Shown here: positions 2,357-59,185 of the stretch, piece after piece
How positions within the stretch are numbered: position 1 is the first letter of the stretch
Layout: the number at the start of each line of letters is the position of its first letter
DNA from: Romanomermis culicivorax
Taxonomy: Eukaryota > Nematoda > Enoplea > Mermithida > Mermithidae
Length of the DNA: 64,000 nt
Assembly (NCBI GenBank): GCA_963922205.1
Contig: CAWUHX010000173.1
Location: 248,001 to 312,000 of the forward strand
Reading direction: 5' to 3'
Position numbers and translations under genes: made by a program
The notes under the pieces: generated by a model
Databases searched by the model: none
What the model saw: the letters and a program-made list of their open reading frames with translations, nothing else
Told to the model about the DNA's origin: nothing

Positions 2357-48488
<46,132 letters not shown>

Positions 48489-48836
48489 AATTTTTTCGCT
48501 CGTACGTACAAGGCGAGCATTGAGCTTACAACGGATAACAATAATTCAGGATTCGCCAATAACCTTTTGCGTAATTAATCAACTGAAAAATGCGAAGCTA
48601 ATAATAATCATAATTGATGTACGATAATAATAATAATCATCTAACACCAAGCCCTTGTGATATATCATCTTGGAGTCGAATTTAATTTTCTGAATGTCTT
48701 ATTTACGCTCAAAAATCTATAGCCAACATTATCAATAGAACCTGATGGTTTATTGATAATGTTTTTTGAATTAATTACATTTGGTTATGATTCAACCGTT
48801 GAAGCATTTTTTAGGTCTCCTACAGACATAAATGTA
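48489..48836. promoter_or_regulatory. PRRC2: Upstream region of PRRC2
   Basis: About 350 bp between the PRRC2 start codon and the nearest upstream transposon. It must contain the 5' UTR and perhaps the core promoter. I see no convincing TATA box; a CGTACGTACAAGGCGAGC stretch near 48500 is the only GC-richer part, and AATAATAATAATAATC near 48620 is a short trinucleotide repeat. Confidence 0.35.
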
Positions 48837-51950: not shown

Positions 51951-52303
51951 AGAGTATTATTGGACGGAAAGCAAGATTTTTCTCGATATTTTTACAACCT
52001 TTTAGCCGTCTGTAAAACGTTATGATTTTTTGGACATGATTTTTTAGCATTTTAAAAATGATTAAAACCACGGTTTTTTCCTCGAAGATTTATTCTACGT
52101 GAGAACCGCAACCAAAACCTTGTTCCACATTTTTCAAAAGTTGCATCCCTACTAGATAGAAGCTCTAAAGTTACAGTCTTAAAATGACGTTATGTTCCAC
52201 AGTTCTGAAAGCGTTAATAATGTCGTCACGAACATTTTTCTGCTTTCTTGGCATATACGCAAGCATTCTGATGCTTTCAGAGTCAATAACCTGCAATAAC
52301 CTG

Positions 52304-53966
52304 CGAAGAAACTTTCTGCCTGTTTGGTTGAACCATTCTCACATATTTTCGAAGTTTCTTTCAGAACTGGATCACTCCCCTTATTGTGGAAAAAGGCCAA
52401 CATTGTTCCTGTATTCAAAAAAGGCGACCCTGCCCTTCCTTCCAACTATCGGCTTATCTTTTTGTGCAGTGTCCCTTGCAAGATTATAGAAAGTATCATT
52501 AACTCCTCTATCATGTTTTATCTGAGAAATAATTCTCTCTTAACTCCATGGCAGTTTGGTTTCCTCCCAACAAAATCTTGTGAAACACAATTACTTCAAT
52601 GTAAAAATGTATGGACCAAACACATTGATTCCGGCTTTCCAATCGACACAATTTACATTGATTTCAAGAAAGCCTTTGATTCCGTTTCTCACAAAAAATT
52701 GATGCTTAAATTGAAAACCTATGGTATCTCAGGCTTTCTAGAAAAGTGGATCTTAGATTTCCTCTCAACTCGGACCCAGAGAGTCTGTATCAATAATGTC
52801 ACTTCTCAGTTTGCTCCCGTCTCTAGTGGTGTTCCTCAGGGTAGTGTTCTAGGTCCTAAACTTTTCTTGTTATTCATCAATGATCTCCCTGACAATCTAA
52901 AATCTGATATCTATCTTTTTGCTGATGATGTTAAGATCTTTAATTGTTCCAGAAACAAACGTATCCTCCAAGATGATCTTGATCAAATTTTTGGTTGGTC
53001 AAAAAAATGGCAATTAGAAATTTCTGCTGAAAAAAGTACTGTTCTATATTTGGGTTCTTCAAATCCAAAATACAATTACACAATGGGTAATTCTATTATT
53101 CCCGGCAACAATCCATACGTTAGAGATCTTGGTATACTTATCTCCCAAAATTTAAATTTCAGGGATCACCTAAATCATATAATTAAAAAGACTTACCAAC
53201 GGAGCTATTTGATAATGAAAACATTTACTTCTCGTAACGCCTCTAATCTTATCTGTGCCTTTACAGTTTATGTTAGACCAATATTAGAGTATTGTTCCAC
53301 TGTTTGGAATCCCTATTATGCTTCTGATATCGACTTAGTTGAAAATGTTCAGAGGAGATTTACTAAGCGAATTTTTGGTTTTAAGTGTGAACTTTCCTAC
53401 AACCAGCGCTTATCAAAACTGGGTATAGAACGCCTAGAAGTTCGTCCACTGTTATCTGCATTAAATCTCATGTTCCAAATCTTTAAGAACCAATCCTGCC
53501 TTAAACCATCAGATTTTTTCATTAGCAGCAGTTCTGACTTTACTCGCCGTAAAAATGACTACAAACTGATTACTGGTAAAGCCAAAACAAATGCAAGGCT
53601 TTATGATTTCTCTAACAGATATGTCAACATATGGAATGACATCCCAAATGATGTTATTAGTTCTTCCAATCTACAGGCCTTTAAAACTATAGTGTCAAAA
53701 ATAGATTTTTCAAGGTATCTTGGGGGGGGGCGCGTTAGTTCTGTTACGCATAGTAACCTGCGCTCCCTATTACTTGCAGCCTGATTTACTGTTATCATTT
53801 TTCGCCTATCGTCGCATCTTTAATATGGTTTTTTTCGCATTTTGTTTACTATTAGTAACAATTTTCTATTTTTTTGTAATTACCGCTCAAATTATATTTA
53901 TTTCCATTGACTGTCATCGTTGTTTATTTTTTCTAATGCAAGTAATAAATTCATTCATTCAAAAAT
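52304..53966 (+). mobile_element. 5'-truncated CR1-like LINE insertion
   Basis: Carries the RT ORF, about 170 bp of 3' untranslated sequence and an AATAAATTCATTCATTC tail typical of CR1 elements. F6 sequence stops at AACCTGCAA (about 52300) and resumes as AAAAATGAG (about 53961), so the LINE split an older repeat. Confidence 0.8.
52306..53784 (+). CDS. CR1-clade non-LTR reverse transcriptase, 5'-truncated ORF2
   Basis: Reverse transcriptase and C-terminal region of a CR1/L2-type retrotransposon. Open for about 490 codons without an ATG at the left edge. In order: WKKANIVPVFKKGDP with NYRLIFL (RT-1/2 region; the usual NYRPISL is changed), IYIDFKKAFDSVSH (motif A with the first Asp), SSGVPQGSVLGPKLFLLFIN (motif B), YLFADDVKIF (motif C, catalytic Asp pair intact), then the CR1-type tail with LEYCSTVWNPYY and VENVQRRFTKRIFG. 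The endonuclease domain and ORF1 are missing, so the copy cannot move by itself. It interrupts an F6 repeat and ends in an (ATTC)n tail. Confidence 0.92.
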   Translation, partial: KKLSACLVEPFSHIFEVSFRTGSLPLLWKKANIVPVFKKGDPALPSNYRLIFLCSVPCKIIESIINSSIMFYLRNNSLLTPWQFGFLPTKSCETQLLQCKNVWTKHIDSGFPIDTIYIDFKKAFDSVSHKKLMLKLKTYGISGFLEKWILDFLSTRTQRVCINNVTSQFAPVSSGVPQGSVLGPKLFLLFINDLPDNLKSDIYLFADDVKIFNCSRNKRILQDDLDQIFGWSKKWQLEISAEKSTVLYLGSSNPKYNYTMGNSIIPGNNPYVRDLGILISQNLNFRDHLNHIIKKTYQRSYLIMKTFTSRNASNLICAFTVYVRPILEYCSTVWNPYYASDIDLVENVQRRFTKRIFGFKCELSYNQRLSKLGIERLEVRPLLSALNLMFQIFKNQSCLKPSDFFISSSSDFTRRKNDYKLITGKAKTNARLYDFSNRYVNIWNDIPNDVISSSNLQAFKTIVSKIDFSRYLGGGRVSSVTHSNLRSLLLAA

Positions 53967-55568: not shown

Positions 55569-56821
55569 TAGCACCGTTTTTCTTTCCTCGAAGATTTTTT
55601 CAACATGGGAACCGCACCCAAAATTTTTTTCATCATTTTCCAAAAATTTTCCACATTTTCAAAAACGCTTATAATGTGGCTACGGATGCTTTTTTATGCA
55701 TTTAAGGAGCATACCCAAGCATTTTGTTGTATTTGTAGTCAGAAACCTGCAAAAATGAGGAAAAAAATTGAGAAAATTCTGGTTCTGTTAGTCAAAATGA
55801 GCTCATGAAGAATATATTGGTGTTCTATAGGAGCGGATAAAGTAAGTTAGCGATAGAGTTCTCATGAATATATCCGCTATCAACATTTCTGTGATTCCGA
55901 TTAGAATCATATAATTTTATTTAGTTCTTGGTCCGGCGCAGAGCGCCGAAAAAATTTTTGGATTTTCACTTTCTAAAACACTGGAAAATGAACCTTCATA
56001 ACACTGGGAAATAAAAAAAAGTGCAATTTGCTCCTCATTCCGGCACGAAGCGCCGAAAAAATTTTCGGGTTTTTATATCCTAAAACGCTGAAAAATAATA
56101 AATCTCTCCAACAGATAATTAATGAACAAAAGTTTTAAAATCGCAGTCTAGAATGATCAGGGTTGGCAAAAACCAAACTTTTGAAATTTCGACATTTTGG
56201 TTTTTTGGTTTTTTAGTGGTTTTTTATGGTTTTTTAATGGTTTTTTTGGTTTTTCTATGGTTTTTTAGTGGTTTTTTTCTGGTTTAATTCTTTAAAATGT
56301 TTGGTAATCGAAATAACTATGTAAAATACTGCTGGAAGCTCCCTGTATCATCTAAGACTAGTCAGGTAGCCTTAAAATGGCAGCTAGAAGTATTAATCTT
56401 ACCCGAAGTGTCATTATTTTATGCTATACGAAATCCCTATTATAAGCGGGCACACAAGAAAGAAACGATGAGTGAAGAACATAAGAAAAGTAAAAATGGA
56501 ACAGAGCATGCGATATCAGGGTTGGCAAAAACCCAGTTTTTGAAATCTTCATTTTTGGGTTTTTGGGTTTTTTGGTGGGTTTTTCTGGGTTTTTGGTGGG
56601 TTTTTCTGGGTTTTCGGTGGGTTTTTCTAGGGTTTTTGTTCCAGTTTTGTACTAATGAATGATCATTTTACTTAAAATATATATGAGAATGTTATTTTTA
56701 ATGTATAAAGTGCATGAAATTGCTGAACAGTCTTCAAGACTGACTATACATTTGGTTGTAACATATTTACACGAGTCACGACTGCACATTGCACAACGAT
56801 TTTATCGATTTGGCTCATTAA

Positions 56822-57260
56822 AACAGCGAACCAGAAACAAAAAAAGAACGAAAAAAATGAAAACATAAAAAATTCAATACAGAAAACAACAAAAAACAAA
56901 AAAAGAAAAGAAAAACAAAAAAAAAACAGAAAAAAATCAAAAAAAAAGAAAAACAACGAACCAGAAACAAAAAAAAGGAAAGAAAAAAAAACATAAAAAT
57001 CAATACCATACAGAAAACAAAAAGAACCAAAGGGAAAAAACAAAAAAAAGAAAAACTAACGAACCACAAACAAAAAATAAACAGAAAAAAATTAAAAAAA
57101 AAAACAGAAAACAACGAACCAGAAACAAAAAAAGAAAGAAAAAAATGAAAACATAAAAAAATACAATACAGAAAACAACAAAAAACAAAAAACAAACAGC
57201 AAAAAACGAAAAAATGAAACAAAATAAGAAAAAAATTTAAAAATTTTGAAAACATTTTAA
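56822..57260. repeat. A-rich irregular tandem array
   Basis: Almost pure A with C and G interruptions. The word AACGAACCAGAAACAAA (or a close form) recurs near 56822, 56955, 57057 and 57112, and ACAGAAAACAAC after each. Lies next to the RNase T2 exon within the nested element. The long F-rich minus-strand ORFs here are products of poly(A). Confidence 0.8.
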
Positions 57261-57385
57261 AATTTATAAATTTAAGTGATAAATACCGAAAATAATGCAA
57301 AATATTGATTTTTTAAAATTAACTTTGAAACTTTGAAGAATAAACAAATTTTCTTATCAAAAAAATTGATGACGTCATTTTTTAC

Positions 57386-57499
57386 CTTATCAAATTATAG
57401 GAATCGTGTATTTTCAATCCACGATTAAAATAGGCCGATTCATCGGGCAAAGATTTGACTTCCGTAGCGCAGGAACCGTGTTTTTCCCATTCGTGTTTC
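57386..57499 (-). CDS. RNASET2: RNase T2 exon (catalytic CAS-II) inside a hAT-like element
   Basis: 114-nt open exon flanked by TTTTCATAG acceptor and AG|GTAAAA donor, entering and leaving at phase 2. It encodes (W)KHEWEKHGSCATEVKSLPD, ESAYFNRGLKIHDSYNLI, matching the second conserved active-site segment of RNase T2 (F-W-K-H-E-W-x-K-H-G-T-C) with the catalytic His, Glu, Lys and His all present. The incoming split codon would complete Trp (TG|G), as in the family. No other RNase T2 exon (such as the HGLWP segment) was found nearby. It lies wholly inside the nested transposon 56517-57785, so it is probably a captured exon, not a working gene. Confidence 0.85.
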
Positions 57500-59185
57500 C
57501 TATGAAAATTTTTTTTTAATTTTGAAAAAATAAAAAGAAATTTAAAAAAAACTTTTTTAATGAAAAAAATAAAACGAAAACAAAAAATTTTAGGAAACAT
57601 AAAAAAAATTTAAAATATAAAAAAAGTTTAAAATTTAAAAAAAACTAAAAACTAAATTCTTTTTCTGAAAACAATACTATCTGAAAATTTAAAAGAATTA
57701 AGAAAAACCCAAAAACCCAAATTTTGTCAAGAAAATGCACCCAGAAAAACCCAAAAACCCAAAAACCCAGGTCTTGCCAACCCTGTGCGATATGTAAGGA
57801 GCATTCAAGGAAAAGAAGAAAAATTATAAATAAAGGGAAATATACAATACGCAATGAATGTAATCAAAACTCATAAAAAATCAACCACAGAATTGTACCA
57901 ATGCATCACGTATGCACAGGAAAGCTGAAATGACGCAACTTTTAAGTACCTATACCGTTTTTGATAAGAGGGTTTTAACTTGATAGATTATTACATATGT
58001 TATTAATATTACAAACTGCAGTTGAAAGTCACACATAGACATTTCAGATGTTTCCAAATTTGGCTTTTCAAACCTGTCTGTAACTACAGCAAATCGGTCT
58101 TATTATATATACTATCCTCGCTTGCATGATAGATACGTATTTTTGTAAGATGTTTTTCTACCTAGTAGTGACGTCAAGTCACATAAAAATGAGCCACTCA
58201 AAAGCTCTTCTCTTTGTTAACCTACAGTATGCTTAACTGATCTATATACAATTTTATTATTGTTTTCTCATTTATATTTTGAAATTTCGAGCTAAGAAAA
58301 TTGAAAAGCTTAGCGTAACAATGAATCCAGGATTATTATACTCAATCATATTTTGTAAAATTTTGATGATATGGATCAATGGATGTCACCTCGTATGGTC
58401 AGAGTACACTCTACGAAAGATTTAGCGTCCAATTTTTTTGTGAGCAAATTATAGCAAACTAAACTCATGTACTAAATGTGTGCTTGCAAGATGGGTACGA
58501 AGGAAAGGATCCTTTGTGTGCGAAATGTATCATAAAAATACGACTTTTTTTATTTTGTAGTGAAGTCAATTCAACTAAATTGATTGTTATTTTAATTTAG
58601 ATAGACACCAATACATGCCTAGAAGATCAACCAATATGAAAAAACAGTTTCCTAATGATTTTGGAAAAAAACCAAAAAAACCAAAAAACCAGAGATTTTC
58701 CAATTTTTTGGTTTTTTTAAAAAACCAAAAAAACCAAAAACCAAAAAACCAAAGCCTTGCCAACCCTGAGAATGATGTCTTCAATTTCCACCTACAATAA
58801 ACGCAAAAGTTCAGATTGCAAACGTTTAAAAAATATTCCAATCATCGAGAGAAAAAATTGAGAGAATTGATGAAAAATCTTTATTTTCGGCGACATATAA
58901 TTGACTGTAAACGATTAGAAAATGAAACGAGCTAACTTGATTGATAGAAACTGCTGAGAATTAATTAGTAAGTCGGAGTAGATATGCTAACGACGACCGC
59001 GCCGCGCCGGAAAATTTTGAGATTTTGACCTTTTAAAGTCCACCAAAACACATCTTTTCGGTTTAGAGTTCCCCAAAATTTTTTCCACAATGAGAACCAT
59101 ACCCAAAATTTATTTCCTCATTTCGAAATTTTTTTCCTCAAAAGACCCCATTTGAGGAAAAAAACGGTGGTATGTAGACAGACAA

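Follow-up and report, generated by a model that had tools for sequence, protein, structure and literature searches.

The window analysed here is a stretch of 64,000 nucleotides that contains, at 56517..57785, a non-autonomous hAT-type element carrying an exon of an RNase T2 gene. This element is itself inserted in a larger hAT-like element. The two elements and their parts are arranged as follows (a dot stands where no strand is assigned):

56158..58768, strand (.): outer hAT-like element, host of the nested inner one, with TSD AGAATGAT at 56150-56157 and 58769-58776
56509..56516, plus: left TSD TGCGATAT of the inner element
56517..57785, strand (.): non-autonomous hAT-type element of about 1.27 kb, with TIRs CAGGGTTGGC.../...GCCAACCCTG, an 8-bp TSD, and dispersed copies with their own TSDs
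56517..56819, plus: element-derived left part, common to siblings with a hAT transposase C-terminus
56820..57654 (approximate limits), minus: captured RNase T2 gene segment (A-rich intron, exon, intron), at element positions 304-1138, matching the donor on contig C369
57384..57385, minus: splice donor GT
57386..57499, minus: exon captured from the RNase T2 gene, 114 bp long, phase 2-2, with the KHEWEKHGSC segment and a Pfam match; donor and element consensus are identical at all 114 positions
57500..57501, minus: splice acceptor AG
57655..57785, plus: element-derived right part and TIR
57786..57793, plus: right TSD TGCGATAT of the inner element

The earlier note had read this locus as a hAT-like transposon with TIRs and a perfect 8-bp TSD, and we found both ends, at 56517 and 57785, and the TSD TGCGATAT, which is exact on both sides. 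The inverted ends are imperfect and start with CAGGGTTGGC. The TIR consensus of the hAT superfamily starts with CA(G)GG, as do the short TIRs of this element (CAGGGTTGGC/GCCAACCCTG). Both TSDs belong to one element: in a search with the joined flanks, 40 of the 41 matched rows of the outer repeat family crossed the junction without the insert, and the best of these empty sites matched at 98% and 97% (C36 and C152). The exact left limit of the captured segment cannot be placed because the intron there is of low complexity. A scan of the window with Rfam gave no match at the gathering threshold.

Coding sequence was also recognised elsewhere in the window. On the minus strand, 48033-48500 encodes the N-terminus of a BAT2_N (PRRC2-type) gene, which has an apparent coding start near 48.5 kb and coding-like segments that go on at lower coordinates; it is the nearest recognised same-strand gene to the element. 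BAT2_N genes are metazoan, which points to an animal genome. On the plus strand, an open frame at 52300-53784 contains a reverse transcriptase domain (RVT_1, 113.6 bits) and is probably a LINE.

The exon at 57386-57499 had been assigned to RNase T2 from its letters, and the profile search agrees. It matches Pfam PF00445 (Ribonuclease_T2) with 37.9 bits (E 2.6e-9, cut-off 26). Among solved structures the closest relative, at E 3.4e-7, is 3t0o, which bears the name Ribonuclease T2. Its minus-strand frame reads RKHEWEKHGSCATEVKSLPDESAYFNRGLKIHDSYNLI without a stop, and both splice sites are in place on that strand, with AG before 57499 and GT after 57386. The match includes the second conserved active-site segment of the family, the HEWxKHGxC motif. 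The first active-site segment (HGLWP), which a working enzyme needs, is absent, and the exon is the sole PF00445 match in the element. Since the donor stretch did not yield an exon with the first segment either, the element alone cannot encode a working enzyme. The symmetric phase 2-2 of the earlier note held for the 3' side, where the next donor exon joins in frame (AG|A); no donor exon was found ahead of it, so the 5' phase is the one given by the reading frame only.

Copies, relatives and the donor gene

We searched the window's own genome (359 Mb in 595 contigs), for which all repeat counts are lower bounds. The whole element gave at least 71 matched pieces, many of them spanning positions 1-1269 (40 scored of 2359 candidates), and the exon gave at least 40 rows at 98-100% identity, donor included (40 scored of 53 candidates). 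Of the 51 matches to the Pfam Ribonuclease_T2 profile in the genome, two belong to the donor locus (the donor exon and one other) and 49 to element copies. These 49 loci carry the exon whole or in part, a few of them having it cut or shifted. Weaker Pfam matches (C81, C33, C199 and C128) were considered as resident gene candidates, and all were element copies. A near-full-length element match in C32 is absent from the Pfam matches.

We aligned 47 of the 49 exon-bearing copies, leaving out the C45 copy and the C8 copy at 2140789, both of which have element sequence. Both ends are kept in 35 of the aligned copies, and the other 12 are incomplete within the stretches read. When the ends were allowed to shift by up to two bases, 30 of the 35 two-ended copies had an exact TSD, three had one with a single mismatch, and two had none; without such a shift, 29 were exact and four had one mismatch. 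An 8-bp TSD with 0-1 mismatch, present in 33 of these 35 copies, is as expected of the hAT superfamily. The 33 scored TSDs are of 32 distinct sequences, the sole repeat being the pair formed by the window copy and the C29 copy. Hence, dispersed copies with the same ends and their own TSDs exist, the family became multicopy by transposition, and the exon travels with the element, as the earlier note had supposed. The target sites of three copies resemble one another (CCCCCAAC; CCCCCACC/CCCCCAAC; TCTCCAAC) and may represent insertions into one abundant C-rich repeat.

The family also encodes a hAT transposase, of which only the C-terminal part is present in sibling elements with the same ends. 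These siblings have the same left 303 bases and right end, with the transposase C-terminus (PF05699, Dimer_Tnp_hAT, 33.2 bits, cut-off 21.4) replacing the RNase segment. The transposase fragment is abundant (at least 150 matches, with 150 scored of 1032 candidates). Relatives in C348 and C66 contain the transposase fragment and the captured intron without the RNase exon, and have exact 8-bp TSDs according to a reading by eye (CATGGAAC and TAGATTAG). Another relative, in C253, likewise has the captured intron without the exon. Since exon-less relatives transposed too, the exon is dispensable for mobility. These structures suggest that the ancestor held both a transposase part and the captured part, and that the form seen in the window lost the former, its remaining parts meeting at a shared AAAAC. 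An intact autonomous member of the family was not isolated; the one candidate fetched as a possible autonomous parent (C91) consists only of a sibling and a remnant of the element in which part of the exon is present.

The earlier note had expected the source RNase T2 gene to lie elsewhere, with its exon and flanking introns aligning to the element. We found it on contig C369, with the following exons:

C369:113724-113837, minus: donor exon, identical to the captured exon, without element ends
C369 110475-110595: next donor exon, reads ILSSVDIYPSDENLYPSKLIFDHLKSILNNSFSLHCLKSQ, follows in order and joins in frame; its Pfam score of 15.7 bits falls short of the cut-off of 26
C369 around 106249-106398: C-terminal donor exon, reads EWYLSEFRLCLDKFDFRLIDCP..., without a Pfam match

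The donor differs from the element consensus at 0 of 114 exon positions, at 2 of 147 positions on one intron side, and at 8 of 155 (plus three gap columns) on the other. With so few differences in both exon and introns, the introns were carried along and the capture is recent. The presence of introns excludes capture via spliced RNA, and the match of exon and introns without element ends shows capture at the DNA level followed by transposition. No TIR-like 9-mer occurs anywhere in C369:102300-152600. The parental copy is thus elsewhere and unbordered by the element, and a host gene fragment, exon and introns, lies inside a TIR element, as in Pack-TIRs.

The two further RNase T2-like exons lie downstream of the donor exon in the correct order. 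The C-terminal one can be tentatively assigned to the RNase T2 gene by its order, by its Cys-containing motifs, which we take to be RNase T2-like, and by its occurrence: the EWYLSEFRLCLDKFDFRLIDCP exon was found in the genome at the C369 locus only, including a partial second copy in tandem, about 20 kb from the first. The RNase T2 locus in C369:102300-152600 is tandemly duplicated and its introns are A-rich tandem repeats. Both 3' exons are present in the second copy, and the second-motif exon was not found there. Regular expressions revealed no 5' donor exon with the first catalytic motif in C369 102.3-152.6 kb, and a genome-wide pattern search for this motif gave 66 matches (21 in a reversed control), none of them on C369. 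Since its 5' exons were not found in these 50 kb, the donor gene may be truncated at the 5' end, or the assembly may have split it.

Origin of the element and state of its exon

The element has hAT ends, captured its cargo from the gene on C369, and transposed multiple times. We are highly confident that it is a Pack-TIR of the hAT superfamily whose RNase T2 fragment came from C369 and spread to about fifty sites. On this reading, a non-autonomous hAT element took up, at the DNA level, about 0.8 kb from the genome's own RNase T2 gene, probably by template switching or gap repair. The captured piece corresponds to one whole exon and the inner parts of both adjoining introns. The fragment-bearing elements then spread to about fifty sites, presumably by means of a hAT transposase supplied in trans. 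The window copy lies inside the outer hAT-like repeat, and this composite has itself transposed.

The exon alone could be taken for a piece of a resident RNase T2 gene or pseudogene with incidental TIRs, and the earlier note had named further RNase T2 exons around this position as the sign of such a gene. In the Pfam genome search, the exon is the single RNase T2 match on C173, the contig of the window, the donor sits on another contig, and the same element occurs at dozens of sites with different TSDs. Together with these dispersed copies, the existing empty sites already refute a resident gene, whose probability we regard as negligible. The spread of the exon by segmental duplication rather than by transposition is hardly more than conceivable. 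It would account for the C29 copy, which is 98% identical to the window copy and has the inner TSD in common with it (one mismatch, on one side). Yet, C29 contains the same composite of outer and inner elements, and its homology to the window ends exactly at the outer ends, where the TSDs differ (TATGCACA in C29, AGAATGAT in the window). Different outer TSDs around a shared inner one indicate that the composite transposed as a unit, and the window and C29 provide the only repeat among the 33 scored TSDs.

The setting and the sequence of the copies bear on a possible use of the exon by the host. Their flanks gave 181 translated segments, from which 74 recurring between loci were dropped; a Pfam scan of 10 of the 107 listed segments gave one match, Cyt-b5 (48.8 bits). 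This match is the second of two exons of a cytochrome b5 gene (the first was identified by eye) between which the C96 copy lies in antisense. Relative to the commonest sequence, the 43 aligned copies without indels have 32 distinct changes in the exon, 22 of them nonsynonymous and 10 synonymous (expected ratio 2.6, p=0.69; so few changes give the test little power). These changes include two stops and residues in the active-site segment. In 48 rows including the donor, the exon diverges from the consensus by 0.9%. The corresponding values elsewhere in the element are 1.0% (positions 130-310), 1.2% (730-869) and 2.4% (984-1160, a range that extends slightly beyond the captured part). The exon at first seemed specially conserved, at 98-100% compared with about 94% for whole copies, but this contrast was gone once the A-rich tandem repeat was set aside, the non-repeat sequence of the element being just as conserved. 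Judging from these changes, the captured exons look neutral. Length, AG/GT and open frame are intact in 38 of the 47 aligned copies, as expected of a young family.

These 38 copies would also fit a mobile exon, i.e., one that is kept because sense intronic copies are spliced into host mRNAs and alter proteins or regulation. A 114-bp phase 2-2 exon would leave the frame unshifted in a phase-2 intron, and at least one copy does lie in a host intron. However, this cytochrome b5 copy, the sole intronic one shown, is antisense, the changes fit neutrality and affect the active-site segment or introduce stops, the exon is no more conserved than the rest of the element, and relatives lacking it transposed too. 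We therefore find this reading improbable, and neutral changes, ordinary conservation and the mobility of exon-less relatives leave any host use of the exon unsupported at the sequence level. It is very unlikely that the element carries the exon to supply antisense or small RNAs directed at the RNase T2 gene: the element consensus equals the donor exon over 114 bp, and there are many copies, at least one of them antisense inside a host gene, but a selection signal is absent. Within the Pack-TIR, the exon is most likely a neutral passenger, with splice signals that would still be usable in the intact copies.

There is a small chance that sense intronic copies are spliced into host transcripts, which would be exon shuffling by a hAT transposon caught in the act, with nested composites spreading the exon further. 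About fifty sites, including at least one host intron, now hold a catalytic exon that is neutral to the reading frame and whose splice sites are apparently usable. One genome holds the donor gene, the captured exon with its introns, the carrier, empty sites and dozens of copies, so that the first steps of exon shuffling can be seen here in a clean and recent case.

Comparison with known gene-capturing elements

The element resembles hAT MITEs, which are short, non-autonomous and numerous, with an 8-bp TSD and TIRs that start with CAGGG. Ordinary hAT MITEs are deletion derivatives without host gene cargo, unlike the present element. The Pack-TYPE elements described in PMC8903248, including Pack-MULE and Pack-hAT, are likewise non-autonomous TIR elements with gene fragments, but they are plant elements. 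Turmoil-1 of C. elegans, as presented in PMC2572040, is likewise an animal DNA transposon with transduplicated coding sequence; its cargo lies in the inverted terminal repeats, whereas here it is an internal exon with introns.

Tan et al. 2021 reported 370 Pack-TIRs in 100 animal reference genomes, of which four were multicopy (PMC8277862). Their examples include the frog hAT Pack-hAT-N8_XT, which captured a 5' UTR and is found on three chromosomes, the multicopy Ssk-FB4 family of flies, and the capture of a coding exon with its neighbouring introns (ERP44); chimeric transcripts are described for some Pack-TIRs, not all (PMC8277862). The animal Pack-TIRs of that account share with the present family a host gene fragment within a TIR DNA transposon (a hAT in the frog case), a parental copy elsewhere that is untied to the element, and distinct TSDs. 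Hence, the remark in the earlier note that small animal hAT elements are much less known for such capture has to be tempered, given these published Pack-TIRs and the frog hAT among them (PMC8277862).

The present family differs from the cases described there in several respects. It has 49 exon-bearing loci, against three chromosomes for Pack-hAT-N8_XT (PMC8277862). Its cargo is a complete coding exon, symmetric in phase and flanked by both splice sites, instead of the 5' UTR of the frog element, and one copy moved again inside an outer element. In a limited literature search, we came across no family of animal TIR elements in which a captured exon is present in so many copies. Because multicopy capture by animal TIR elements is reported as rare (PMC8277862), the size of this family lets host use of a splice-ready exon be measured. 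The capture of gene fragments in animals is already known, and the copy number reached here looks unusually high.
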